Part shown: piece after piece, positions 33,301 through 38,628 of the stretch
How the letters are laid out: every line of letters starts with the position of its first letter
Numbering within the stretch: position 1 is the stretch's first letter
NCBI GenBank assembly: GCA_014905825.1
Contig: JACGCN010000024.1
Location: forward strand, 682,001 to 746,000
Direction: 5' to 3'
DNA length: 64,000 nucleotides
DNA from: Lyophyllum atratum
Taxonomy: Eukaryota > Basidiomycota > Agaricomycetes > Agaricales > Lyophyllaceae
The notes under the pieces: model-generated
What the model was told of the DNA's origin: nothing
Seen by the model: the letters and a program-made list of their open reading frames with translations, nothing else
Databases searched by the model: none
Program-made: the position numbers and the translations under genes

Positions 33301-34158
33301 ACTTCAAATGGATATTCTCGGCTCACATTCGACCCGAACCGCCGGGAGTGCTCGAGACAAACAGAGATCGAGGCGCAGACAGAGCAATCGGTCACGATGT
33401 GTTGAAGTATTTCCCGTGGAAGAATTTGACGTAATTCGTGATCCCGAGAAGTACCTGTTTCATGTAGAGGCCCGCGACGCCAGACAGGAGATACTTTGGC
33501 TTGCTCTGGGGATAATTTAGGCTGTCCATCGGGGTCTCTGAACACAGTTAGAGAGGCTTGATAGATATATAAGGCGATGACACACTCATATAACGTGGAA
33601 CATGAAGGGCTTGCAGAACCCGCGGCATATTCGTCCCACGAAGGGAAGAATAGTCCATTCACTGATCCCCCTTTCCTTAAGACATACGTCTGTTCTTCTA
33701 AACGGTGCATTGAACTAGGCGTTGGCATTAATCCTTTGCTGAGAAAACTGCTATCCACGTACGCGTCGAAAAGTGATCAATGCCAATTGGCGTGAGGTTG
33801 ACATTCAACTCTGTACCGGGTACTCCGGTCGCGGCATCTTGTTGCGAAGTCGGACCCTTTTGCTTGTCTACAAAAGCCTTGATCTTCTCCGCCCGCTGAA
33901 GGGCCTTCCCAGCGCTTGCTTTCCACTTCGCTGCTTGTACTGGCGTGGCGCCGGTACCCGACCGGCTAAGATGGAGGTAGAGCTCCGCCGATTTCACGTA
34001 AAGACGAAACGCAAGGTCATACTCGCACGATAGCTCGGCCTTCGCAGCTTTAGTGTAGGTCAGCTGTATCCGATGTCATGAACGTTGATGTCATTTTCTA
34101 AAGAACGGGACGGCACGCACCTCGGCTTCGTGATCAACTGGGCGAGTGGTTTTGTTCA
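30365..34158 (-). CDS. PalB/Rim13-type calpain-like cysteine protease
   Basis: Processing protease of the fungal ambient-pH (Rim/Pal) pathway, which cleaves the PacC/Rim101 transcription factor on endosome-bound ESCRT. Exon 1 (ATG 34158) is short. The next exons encode an MIT domain (AKAELSCEYDLAFRLYVKSA, KALQRAEKIKAF) that binds ESCRT-III. The papain-like calpain core follows, with SPEQAKVSPVWRR and the catalytic-cysteine region TDCSVCASISVCLEH. It continues with VVVDDRLPYHPMDGTL, DLHALTGWIPEHI-like sequence and VFDGIYLSWDP (substrate-cleft side). The C-terminal half carries two beta-sandwich calpain domain III units, ending in KYWAVPSTYNPG. It has many introns of about 50 nt. I did not place the catalytic His and Asn with certainty. 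Overall order and length fit PalB. Confidence 0.8.
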
Positions 34159-34590: not shown

Positions 34591-36824
34591 TTATTGAGCA
34601 TTGGAGATCCGTTCGAGCGTTTCTAAGATAGCTCGAACGTCCAGAGGTGCTCGCATCGTCTCGCGAAATTGCGCAGGGGTAAGCATTTCCCCACTGTCAG
34701 CAGGTCTTTGATCTCGAGGAAGCATGGGTTCCAGCCGAGCAAGGACATTCTGCACAGTGGGACGTTTGGTAGAGTCACCGTTCCAGCAGTCCTCCATCAA
34801 CGACCACATATCCTCCGTTAGGCCCCAGGTAAGCCATGGAGGGCTCGACTTTGTGGGGCGGGGTGGTCGTCTGCCAGCTTGTACCTGTAGCAACACTGCT
34901 GACTCTCGTGAGAGATGCGAGAATGGGACATTGCCCGTAAATATCTTTGCGAGGTTAGCTGTAAATTTCGGTACTCGATTATGATTCACGTACCTCATAG
35001 CAAACACAGGCCCAAGCGTACATGTCACTAGCCTCGTCGTTCTGGACAAGCTCATCATTATCAAGGTCAAATAGCTCGGGGGCCTGCCATCTCATGGAAC
35101 CGCCTTTGGATGCAGCGGACGAATTGGATGTCCAAGCCAGGATATTTGCGTCTGATATGGACGAAAGGCCAAAATCGGCAACACATGCCCTTCCAGATTT
35201 AGAAACAAGGATGTTAACCTTCAGTAATTGTCAGTTAGGATATAGGATGCTGAGCGGTAAGTCGACATGTACCCCTTTCAAGTCCCCATGAATGATCTTG
35301 TTCTTGTGTAGATACGCAAGTCCCTGAGTAACATCGAAGACCTGGAGGTCGTGAGTTTTCTGTCAGGTTCAAGTTGAGTAGATGCTCACCAGCAGAAGAC
35401 GGTCCGCGTCCGGATAGTTGGCCAAATACTGATTGATAACTCCATGTTCCATCCATGAAGAAACGAGACATATTCGAGTGTTGAGGCGATATAGACCATA
35501 TATTGGAAGTAGATTGGCATGTGAGAGTTGTCCCCAAAGAATGGCCTCCTTCGAACAAGCCTAAAAAAAGAGACCCAGGTCAAATGAAGCAATGGTAACA
35601 AAATTGATGGAAACTACTTTTAGAAAGTGCTCTACTTGCGTCGTCTGATAGACCCTGATGACCTTCATGCACACCGGCTGATCACCCATGGTTCCCTTGT
35701 AGATGTCGGCAAAGCTTCCAGCTGCTACAGGATCACCACCATATTCGACCCCTTGAAGATTATAGCATGCAGGGTACAGCCCTGTCTTTCGCGAAAGTCT
35801 TTGCATCGCAACGATAAGACTGCGCCTAATTACCGAGTCCACTGCCGGAGCATCTAAAAGCTATTGAAAGGTCAGACGCTATACTGTACATCAGCACAAG
35901 CATGTTATACGCACCCATTGAAATAAGTCGAGCAGCTGTTGAGCTTCCGAATCTCGCGAGCTGAGCAGTTTCTTATACAGGGCCACATCATTGAAGATGA
36001 TCGTGAGTCCTGTGACTATAATCGCAATGGTGCTAGCAGTCTCCTCAGGATCGCTCTTTGAATAGGGTTGGGATGCATCGGGAGGAATGGGAGCATCAGG
36101 AATTTCGTTGTGCACTATGAGGCGAGGAATGAAGGGCGAGGCGTCTTGATCTGAGCTCGACCGTGATATTGTACTATCTCCTACAGAGTCCCTGGGAGGC
36201 GGAGCGATGTCGGCTTTTCTTTTCTTAGCCCTTGCTCTGGCTCGTCTGTCATGCATCATTGGTATAATATTGGATGAAAATGAATGCAAGAGTCGCACCG
36301 ATTCTGGAACCAAACCTGGGGGCAGAGACCATACTTTAGACAAAGAAAGGCGAGAGAAAGGCGAGAGAAAGAAGAAACAGACGCACCTGAACCTGCCTTG
36401 TACTCATTCCCAGTTCATCAGCAAGTTGAGCTCGCGATGATGCATCCGGCGATACGTTGCGTTGGAAGACAGCCTCAAGAGTGAGCTTTTGGGGCCTCGA
36501 AGTATTATTCCAATTTTCGAGTTCTTCAGGCGTGTATGGATATATGGGACGATCTGTTTGTAACTCATGCAAATATGGCGCGGTAGGCGGGTCGGCGGGT
36601 GAGGGCTCGTAAGCGTGGTTGGGCTGCCTTTGCCAAAAGGCAGTTCCTGCCATAGGGTTGGGCAACGGTGATGCATGATCACTTCTGGAGACACCTGACA
36701 TGAGTGGATCGATGAAAGGTCCAGAGCGCGCCGACCCAATGGACTGCAGCCAAGAGGCGCCGTTGTCGAGTTCCTGCTCATCTTCGCCATTTGTCATCCT
36801 GAGATTTGGGAGATAGTCCGACAT
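34591..36824 (-). CDS. homeodomain-TKL protein kinase fusion
   Basis: One gene that joins a DNA-binding homeodomain to a kinase. Exon 1 (36824-36387, 146 codons) ends in homeodomain helices 1-2 (RPQKLTLEAVFQRN, ADELGMSTRQVQ). A 17 nt micro-exon (36315-36299) encodes VWFQN plus part of an Arg codon, the invariant Trp48, Phe49 and Asn51. Exon 3 (36245-35915) starts RRARARAKKRKAD and runs without break into the pre-kinase linker (SSRDSEAQQLLDLFQW). Exon 4 onward is the kinase: AAGSFADIYKG, VCMKVIRVY (Lys), EAILWGQLSHA, HGDLKGVNILV, ADFGLSS, APELF, RPTVQNVL. Exons 1-3 total 786 bases, exactly 262 codons, and exon 4 adds 81 codons, so all phases fit. The kinase resembles the one at 6960. Targets are unknown; a chromatin-bound kinase is the obvious inference. 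Confidence 0.8.
36299..36315 (-). other. 17 nt micro-exon of the homeodomain recognition helix
   Basis: Bounded upstream by an intron of 71 nt (36386-36316, GTGCGT..CCCAG) and downstream by one of 53 nt (36298-36246, GTGCGA..ACAG). It restores the homeodomain helix 3 motif exactly. Without it the frame reads through a peptide lacking Trp, Phe and Asn. Confidence 0.75.
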
Positions 36825-37365
36825 CCAGCACCAGATGTAGTGAAATCCAGAGGATCAAGAAAACATAGCGATATCAATGGTGATGATATAACTCTGCAAA
36901 GGACCTACACAGGTTGACCTTACTCCTGAGCACAGGTTTGCCGTTGTGACCCACATCTGGTTGTGTACATAAGTTTGCGACTAGATGCCCCATATGCGGA
37001 TATGTCAACTTGGCAAGTGCTCCTCAGGGCGATAGGACTGGCTGCTGTTGAGATAGTACATGACGGATTTCGTTGAGTGTGTGCCACGCACAGGATACTG
37101 ACGGAGGATGGGAGTGCGTGGGAGTCGTTGAACAGATCAATATTCTAAAAATAGAAATCAAGAAGAATCGCTTTGCTCGTGGCATTATGTTCAAGCTGTC
37201 CGTGCGTTTTGAAGACTTCACTTCCTTGCAGCAAATCCTTCAAGAAGACGTGGTTGACTGGTCGTCTGCCTTTCTCGAGACCAGACACCTCACTCCATCT
37301 GTTGTACAATCCATGAATCTCTATATGTAGCTGAGCTGCGTCCACAAGGGAGGCATGCATGTCAT
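36825..37365. other. intergenic stretch
   Basis: About 540 bp of presumed promoter of the homeodomain kinase and 3' flank of the SET gene. An unspliced reading of the SET gene's last exon would extend to 37145, but the spliced stop at 37366 is preferred. Nothing else seen. Confidence 0.4.
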
Positions 37366-38628
37366 CTAAAATAACAACGGCGAGTAGTATGCCTCGGGTG
37401 ACGGCGGTGCCTCCACAGCCTCCCTTTTTCTCATCTCTGCACAGAATGATCAGCCCCAACCACCAAAACGAACATGCCAACTCACGCATCCTCTGCTTTT
37501 TCCTCCACCCCCACTTCGGTACCCTCCTCCCCGGATCCTCCAACCACCCCCTCACCTCTCTTGCCATCACAGGATCCCGTACCTCACTCAGCCTCTCCAG
37601 CTTCTCCGCCCACTCCCTGAACTGCCCCTCCTCCCCGAGCATCGCCCAGCACAAACACACGTCCCTCACGAACGCGCTCTCCATCCCCTGCAACCCCTCC
37701 TGCTCTATCAGCGCCAGCGCCTCCATGTGCGACTTCAACACGAAGTCATCCGCGCGACACAGATCCGTCGCCCACCCCGCGAAGGCCGGGCGCGTGTGTC
37801 GCCAGTCGCGAAGGGCGGCGCGGGCCGCGTCCGACTCGGCACTGAGAGGAGGGGCGAGCTTGCATATGGGGCAAAGGCACATGAACCCGTAATGCGAGAA
37901 GAGACGTGCGCGTCGCGTGTCGCGTGGTTGGGTAACGTCGGTGTAGATCATCGTTATCTCTTCAGAGGGGGCGATGGGACGAAGGGCAAATAGGGAGGAT
38001 GAGAAGGAGGCGGGATCCCATTTGTGTGCAGCATTTGGACCGCAACTGCAGGGTGTGGGTGAGAGGGAATAGGCGTCGGAATGGATGGTGTGGCTCACCT
38101 ATGGTTGCTGCGGTTGATGGTGAGGAAAACGGCGCCGTACTCACTTGCCTCAGTCTCAATCTCGTCAGGGAGGCCAAGTTCAATGGCAGTCCCGTTTGTC
38201 CGCGAAATTCCTTCCTCCATTGTCTCGCACTCCTCTGGAGTCCGACAGTTTGTCATGGTGCGCAACTCATCGCGTCGATGGTTGGGAAGAGCATCAAATA
38301 GGTTGCGGTAGGCAGAGGACCGGGCGTCGTCGACGAGTGGGACGTTGGCGGGAGTTATGATTGCGGGGTGGTCGAGGAGAATAAGAGCGCCAGCTGGGAT
38401 GTGCCGCGTCGCGAACATGCCGAGGCCCTTGTCAGCACCGGCGGGTCTGATCTCGAAGCATGGTTTGCCGTCTGCATCAAGAGGCGTCAAGTGGGCTGGG
38501 TGCGTTGGGACAGGCAGATGTGGGATGATCCGGTTGTCGGCGAGCACTGCACATGGAGCACTTGGGGCATCGGGAAACGAGAGCGTGTAGATCGAGAACG
38601 GCGACGACGACGACGAGGATGAGGCCAT
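37366..38628 (-). CDS. SET domain protein (putative protein lysine methyltransferase)
   Basis: A SET protein of the SMYD-like fungal kind. The first exon (38628-38100) starts with a Ser-rich stretch. It then gives the SET-N part, GLGMFATRHIPAGALILLDH, where GxG-type residues bind S-adenosylmethionine. After an intron of about 60 nt the catalytic core follows: NHSCGPNAAHKWD (Asn-His motif, split by the splice site), EEITMIYTD, and the post-SET cysteines YGFMCLCPICKL. The C-terminal region is helical, with many Glu and Trp. A last intron with GTGAGT donor and TGTGCAG acceptor leads to a short basic/proline exon ending at 37366. No MYND finger is visible. The substrate, histone or other, cannot be told. 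Confidence 0.75.

Follow-up and report, generated by a model that had tools for sequence, protein, structure and literature searches.

A homeodomain and a protein kinase of the TKL (tyrosine kinase-like) type very probably share one gene in Lyophyllum atratum (Agaricales, Lyophyllaceae). The gene lies in the window analyzed here, a stretch of 64,000 nucleotides (nt) within contig C69 (843,982 bases) of a 64.8 Mb assembly of 151 contigs. A sequence-only reading of the window had proposed that the two domains form a single gene; this proposal is strengthened by a second haplotype and by a micro-exon shared with a homeobox gene, although the splicing itself is predicted from sequence. We read the homeodomain-TKL kinase as what would be a new architecture in a domain-capturing kinase family of Agaricomycetes.

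A homeodomain and a kinase in one predicted gene

The predicted gene is read from the minus strand (36824-34591) as eight exons, with all introns GT-AG. The spliced exons sum to 1848 nt (615 codons), and the sole stop codon is terminal. In Pfam comparisons the spliced protein contains a homeodomain (Homeodomain, residues 108-157, 64.5 bits, E-value 7.8e-18) followed by a complete TKL-type kinase (PK_Tyr_Ser-Thr, residues 307-569, E-value 1e-38). The parts are as follows.

36387-36824, minus strand: exon 1 (residues 1-146); start codon, an N-terminus that matches nothing in Pfam, homeodomain helices 1-2 and the first part of helix 3
36504-36518, minus strand: arm residues 103-107, ENWNN, aligned to KHRKR of the stand-alone homeobox gene; ENWKI on C87
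36316-36386, minus strand: intron 1, phase 0, GTGCGT...CAG; 71 nt here vs. 60 nt in C87
36299-36315, minus strand: exon 2, the 17-nt micro-exon GTTTGGTTCCAGAATCG (VWFQNR); position and phases common to the stand-alone homeobox gene on C108/C143
36246-36298, minus strand: intron 2, phase 2, GTGCGA...CAG; holds an ATG (36256) equivalent to the start of the kinase-only model P0001 (C87)
35915-36245, minus strand: exon 3; homeodomain end, basic tail RRARARAKKRK, linker, and pre-kinase module start up to FQW; no in-frame Met
36230-36503, minus strand: Homeodomain PF00046, residues 108-157, Pfam E-value 7.8e-18; spans introns 1 and 2
35618-35860, minus strand: exon 4; pre-kinase module end, glycine loop, catalytic Lys328
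35390-35560, minus strand: exon 5; helix C Glu348 and N-lobe
35273-35341, minus strand: exon 6; catalytic loop HGDLKG (non-RD)
34994-35218, minus strand: exon 7; Asn425, DFG, APE
34591-34944, minus strand: exon 8; C-lobe, C-terminal tail, stop codon
34732-35728, minus strand: protein kinase domain PF07714, residues 307-569, Pfam E-value 1e-38; spans introns 4-7

As the sequence-only reading had it, the homeodomain end (RRARARAKKRK) and the linker of the kinase family (SEAQQLLDLFQW) lie in the same exon, exon 3, with no stop between them. The phases of exons 1-4 also fit (786 nt, or 262 codons, up to the exon 3/4 splice, then 243 nt, or 81 codons, in exon 4), and the end coordinates it gave were correct.

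The second haplotype lies on contig C87 (433,217 bases), which is collinear over ∼10 kb and ∼90% identical; many loci of this assembly are present twice, as for two haplotypes. None of the seven intron borders is lost on C87, the frame and the two domains are likewise kept, and the sole coding indel is a 3-nt deletion in exon 1. Its spliced protein scores 64.2 bits for the homeodomain and an E-value of 4.1e-37 for the kinase. A continuous frame with consensus splice sites is thus retained in an independent copy, as a single gene predicts. Because intron 1 differs in length by 11 nt between the haplotypes, the unspliced reading differs and only the spliced reading is conserved.

The micro-exon provides the second line of evidence, the strongest of the new ones for a single gene. 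GTNTGGTTYCARAAYMG, with AG directly before and GT directly after, has four occurrences in the genome, one in each fusion haplotype and one in each copy of the stand-alone homeobox gene (C108/C143), against 0 for a control pattern. An uninterrupted version of the micro-exon motif (one version tried) had 0 occurrences in the genome. The micro-exon phases (0 before, 2 after) and the start of exon 3 (ACGAGCCA) are identical in both genes. Since they have this splice-flanked micro-exon in common, exon 3, with the kinase linker, corresponds to the third exon of the homeobox gene. Exon 3 has no Met, which leaves three places where kinase translation could begin, namely upstream, within intron 2 or within exon 4; a separate kinase gene would have to use intron 2 or exon 4, the latter start lying inside the pre-kinase module.

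The adjoining open reading frames (ORFs) on the minus strand show a weak SET-domain (37145-38098) and a weak MIT-domain (33728-34075) match, both below the Pfam cut-offs when read unspliced.

Origin of the homeodomain and constraint between haplotypes

The homeodomain scores 64.5 bits against a PF00046 cut-off of 22.9 (64.2 bits in C87) and has the helix 3 sequence VQVWFQNRRAR; the helix 3 residues W, F, N and R and the basic tail are all present. Among solved structures, it most resembles DUX4-type homeodomains in sequence.

The donor candidate is a stand-alone homeobox gene that is still in the genome (C108:1961540 / C143:11821). Over the homeodomain, 34 of 66 residues are alike between the fusion and the C108 gene, compared with 27 to 32 for four proteins from other fungi. 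When the homeodomain part of exon 1 was compared, C108 and C143 scored 124 and the next best locus 65 (15 loci holding 19 of the 20 other homeodomain matches; C1:3232655 fell outside the fetched stretch). The C108/C143 gene and the fusion are alike in micro-exon position and intron phases. In contrast to the fusion, the stand-alone gene retains the basic arm KHRKR and runs from exon 3 into other sequence, and no kinase motif was found by eye in the ∼370 residues of the C108 gene. Relatives of the latter are present in Coniophora (P0002), Artomyces (P0004), Lactarius (P0008) and Ceratobasidium (P0005). Because the stand-alone gene remains, the fused copy would be free to change, and comparing the two shows directly what has changed since the fusion, the lost basic arm included.

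A kinase lies ∼1.2 kb upstream of the homeobox gene in both copies (C108:1959850-1960362 and C143:10129-10641). We take it, by eye, to be Wee1-like. It was rejected as the source of the fused kinase, given this appearance and its absence from the matches to the fusion protein (71 of 371 candidates scored).

Comparison of the haplotypes shows clear constraint on the kinase (9.5 nonsynonymous vs. 34.5 synonymous differences; nonsynonymous rate, dN, 0.015; synonymous rate, dS, 0.205; Fisher 7.5e-15). The homeodomain fold is weakly constrained (core residues 111-157: 3 nonsynonymous, 5 synonymous; dN 0.029, dS 0.158, p 0.02). The rest is not measurably so, with 24.5 nonsynonymous and 11.5 synonymous differences in the N-terminus (residues 1-98, p 0.14), 5 and 1 in the linker (158-216) and 5 and 2 in the pre-kinase module (217-300). 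Overall, dN/dS is 0.64 for the N-terminal half vs. 0.15 for the kinase half. Divergence from C87 along 34945-36824 is a mosaic (intron 3, 0 of 54 positions; exon 3, 3%; exon 1, 11%; introns 4 and 7, ∼20%), suggesting recombination or conversion between the haplotypes.

The kinase half, its family and searches for the same pairing

The sequence-only reading that the kinase keeps Lys, HGD..N and DFG is borne out by K328, H418, D420, N425 and D438 (DFG), and G310, E348 and E471 (APE) are present as well. Each catalytic residue tested is common to 113 to 120 of 120 family proteins, which include P0001, the gene's own C87 entry. The glycine loop keeps a single tested Gly (AGSFA). If the two halves are one gene, these residues make an active kinase likely, and it would be of the non-RD type because the catalytic loop reads HGD. 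The pre-kinase module, from about residue 217, belongs to the kinase family itself.

The motifs typical of tyrosine kinases (TKs), DL(R/A)A(A/R)N and P(I/V)(K/R)W(T/M)APE, are absent from the fusion, which has HGDLKGVN and GGSMRWQAPE instead. Where the form GxR(M/L) ends in M or L, its GRRP ends in P, as in the FslK motif. Among the 120 family proteins none has either TK motif (0 and 0), 70 have GxRPx(R/K)P, 1 has the TK-like GxR(L/M) and the rest have neither. The FslK lineage is defined by lack of the TK motifs and by GxRP in subdomain X, and is expanded in Agaricomycetes (PMC3937382, in excerpt). FslK kinases and the fusion are alike in their intact catalytic residues, in lacking the TK motifs and in having GxRP. 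The fused kinase probably belongs to this lineage as judged by motifs, with TKL proper likewise lacking the TK motifs. Among proteins with solved structures, an ancestral Src-Abl kinase and RAF kinases come closest to it. A quick tree was built from 120 rows, comprising both haplotypes of the fusion together with 118 of 119 relatives, the remaining one having been dropped because its match was short. There the fusion pairs solely with P0064, another L. atratum kinase; the branches are long and the support is modest (Shimodaira-Hasegawa-like approximate likelihood ratio test, 83). P0064 has no homeodomain in its Pfam list.

Other members of the family are listed with additional domains. The relatives considered are the best 120 of 526 database relatives of P0001, P0001 among them, with precomputed Pfam lists. 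Counted from these lists, 28 of the 120 have a non-kinase-type domain (P0015 being doubtful); no list includes a homeodomain, and the 18 L. atratum proteins in this set are listed without any extra domain. A Pfam rescan covering nine of the 120 gave clear passes for a Ste12 DNA-binding domain in P0080 of Termitomyces (86.7 bits, cut-off 25), GATA in P0120 of Termitomyces (38.9 bits, cut-off 26.8) and DEK_C in P0069 of Tephrocybe (59.4 bits, cut-off 24.8). PH_10 in P0019, USP8_dimer in P0016 and DUF6699 in P0068 also passed, GIT_SHD in P0116 passed more weakly (27.4 bits, cut-off 21.1), and P0001 showed the kinase domain only. The C2H2 domain of P0115, one of the 28 listed, fell below the Pfam cut-offs and was set aside from the strong cases. 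Recurrence speaks for the PH_10 and GIT_SHD architectures being real: PH_10 appears in the lists of four proteins from two genera, Tephrocybe and Arthromyces (P0019, P0021, P0023 and P0036), and GIT_SHD (Spa2-homology) in three (P0079, P0102 and P0116). The remaining extra-domain relatives may be merged neighboring genes. P0080, P0120 and P0069 resemble the fusion in combining the same kinase family with a DNA- or chromatin-binding domain; unlike it, they carry the extra domain C-terminal of the kinase and are automatic gene models.

In this genome, no Ste12, PH_10 or GIT_SHD match lies near related kinase matches, compared by eye. At C24:1347345-1350311 a kinase of the same family (P0009) is followed, ∼1 kb on and on the same strand, by GATA zinc fingers, a possible second fusion of a TKL kinase with a transcription factor as far as sequence goes. 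The GATA ORF overlaps the end of the P0009 kinase model, and the GATA part is 47% identical to a GATA gene 15 kb away. The stretch fetched from C81 as the counterpart lacks the kinase-GATA pair and aligns downstream of it only. An open frame results from 107 joins; in 12 of these the donor fits GTRNG and the acceptor YAG (introns of 88-322 nt), and none stands out. The acceptor that looks strongest does not match the donor GTATGT in phase, and this fusion was not established.

A second homeodomain-kinase locus was not found in L. atratum. Of the 22 homeodomain matches in the genome, none of the 20 outside this locus and its C87 haplotype lies near a match to the fusion protein (nearest ∼56 kb, on C65; coordinates compared by eye; a lower bound, with 71 of 371 candidates scored). 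A comparison of 12 loci for homeodomain remnants in other kinase paralogues gave no clear homeodomain match. Alignments of paralogues that reach residues 1-224 are weak or of basic low-complexity sequence (L020, E-value 0.31; L022, E-value 0.015 with 22% identity; L027). Results were similar for P0051, P0043 and P0116.

In a search with residues 1-270, none of the 9 hits among 2611 candidates (proteins of ∼338-1076 amino acids sharing short words, a choice that diverged or mis-modelled fusions could escape) has both domains in one protein. The matches listed for homeodomain or homeobox with kinase in the open-access literature, including excerpts of PMC2838846 and PMC4102429, held no such protein. 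The sequence-only reading that no protein combining a homeodomain with a kinase has been described therefore stands as far as these searches reach, but a DNA-binding domain joined to a kinase has a precedent. In Arabidopsis WRKY19/MEKK4, too, a single predicted protein unites a kinase with a domain that binds DNA sequence-specifically; it differs in being a plant protein with a nucleotide-binding leucine-rich repeat (NLR) core, a WRKY domain instead of a homeodomain and a kinase of the MAP-kinase-cascade type (PMC9528084 and PMC4759884, in excerpt). For fungi, excerpts of PMC2838846 describe a large TKL set in Laccaria bicolor and name a fungal transcription factor domain among the domains seen once in fungal kinomes, so that a kinase with a transcription-factor domain, without a homeodomain, is on record. 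Extra domains are reported in only 16 of 241 FslK members (PMC3937382, in excerpt), and a homeodomain may be among them.

Targeting module, decoy or separate products

Our preferred explanation, held with slightly less than even confidence, is one gene with an active kinase for which the homeodomain is a targeting module, that is, a nuclear kinase aimed by a modified homeodomain. A copy, at the DNA level, of the first exons of the homeobox gene would have come to lie upstream of a kinase gene, and the third homeobox exon would have been fused to the pre-kinase module that the kinase already had. Weak binding to DNA or to complexes, and nuclear entry, could still come from the recognition helix and basic tail. 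The homeodomain would then steer the kinase to homeodomain binding sites or their protein complexes, where the kinase, of a non-RD Ser/Thr type by its motifs, would phosphorylate the proteins present.

Several observations weigh against this explanation. The basic N-terminal arm of the homeodomain is absent: the fusion has ENWNN (ENWKI in C87) vs. KHRKR, KHRRR or KTRKR in five relatives. The arm region (residues 99-110) varies freely between the haplotypes, with 5 nonsynonymous and 0 synonymous differences. The basic arm of homeodomains contacts the DNA minor groove, so its loss predicts weaker or altered DNA binding, and the replacement and free variation of the arm argue against strong sequence-specific binding. 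The loss of the arm in both haplotypes weakens the sequence-only proposal that the fusion puts kinase activity directly on a promoter, as does the weak constraint on the homeodomain fold. Exon 3 (residues 152-262), with 9 nonsynonymous and 2 synonymous differences, shows no purifying constraint, at low power. The protein search and the best 120 of 526 relatives gave no homeodomain-kinase fusion in other species. Two database models, finally, break at or beside the micro-exon: P0001 (467 amino acids, on C87) begins at MHD inside intron 2 and is kinase only, and P0010 (162 amino acids, on the contig of the window) is exon 1 read unspliced into intron 1. Exons of 17 nt are easily missed by gene finders, and both breaks would be explained by how hard short exons are to place when genes are predicted. 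The unspliced homeodomain of P0010 scores only 36.5 bits and ends at profile position 46; the model may be a mechanical ORF.

The main alternative is an integrated decoy, in which the fused homeodomain would be inactive at promoters and mimic the stand-alone factor. Whatever targets the latter, be it a regulator or a factor from a parasite, would then be caught, and its capture would switch on the kinase. Loss of the arm in both haplotypes with the recognition helix intact is consistent with this, as are the captured domain deriving from a host gene that is kept (C108/C143), the unrelated domains listed in 28 of the best 120 relatives (of 526) and the far greater variability of the N-terminal half. 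Decoys have been proposed for plant NLRs with integrated WRKY domains (PMC9528084 and PMC4759884, in excerpt); the literature matches listed in a search for integrated decoys in fungi dealt with wheat. However, many captured-domain relatives are automatic gene models that may be merged neighbors, their varied domains are equally well explained by a targeting module, and the trigger, partner and phenotype of such a decoy are putative. We consider it rather unlikely, and lean moderately toward the homeodomain being a targeting module rather than a decoy.

If the protein started instead at the ATG of intron 2 (MHD-RRARARAKKRK...), the gene would encode a kinase only and exons 1-2 would be a decaying or separately transcribed homeobox remnant. 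P0001 has exactly this start, the ATG is present in both haplotypes, and exon 1 is more diverged than the other exons. However, the borders of exons 2 and 3 are those of the stand-alone homeobox gene, and both haplotypes keep an open homeodomain core under weak constraint (p 0.02). Such a gene would also have to begin by chance with the exact last residues of a homeodomain, and the 17-nt exon may simply have been missed in the public model. This makes a kinase-only gene improbable. Somewhat less improbable, but still doubtful, are two products, with a promoter upstream of exon 1 giving the fusion and an internal start giving the kinase alone, so that the homeodomain is an optional targeting part. 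The same sequence supports either product, but the internal promoter is hypothetical. Least probable is an unexpressed relict drifting toward a pseudogene. The linker and pre-kinase segments lack constraint between haplotypes, as a relict would predict; yet neither haplotype has a stop, a frameshift or a lost splice site, and the kinase is under strong constraint.

Signaling kinases and DNA-binding transcription factors are normally separate proteins that have to meet; in a homeodomain kinase the two would be united. That the database models break off at the border between the domains, beside the 17-nt micro-exon, suggests that other such fusions may have escaped notice. It is conceivable, though we give it a low probability, that TKL kinases of Agaricomycetes repeatedly capture DNA-binding domains of their own transcription factors (a homeodomain in this gene and, in public models of related kinases, Ste12, GATA and DEK_C), either to act at promoters or to guard transcription factors. 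If so, this domain-capturing family would parallel, in fungi, the immune receptors of plants that carry integrated domains. If the captured domains are real, mushrooms would hold a large kinase family with exchangeable aiming or bait parts.
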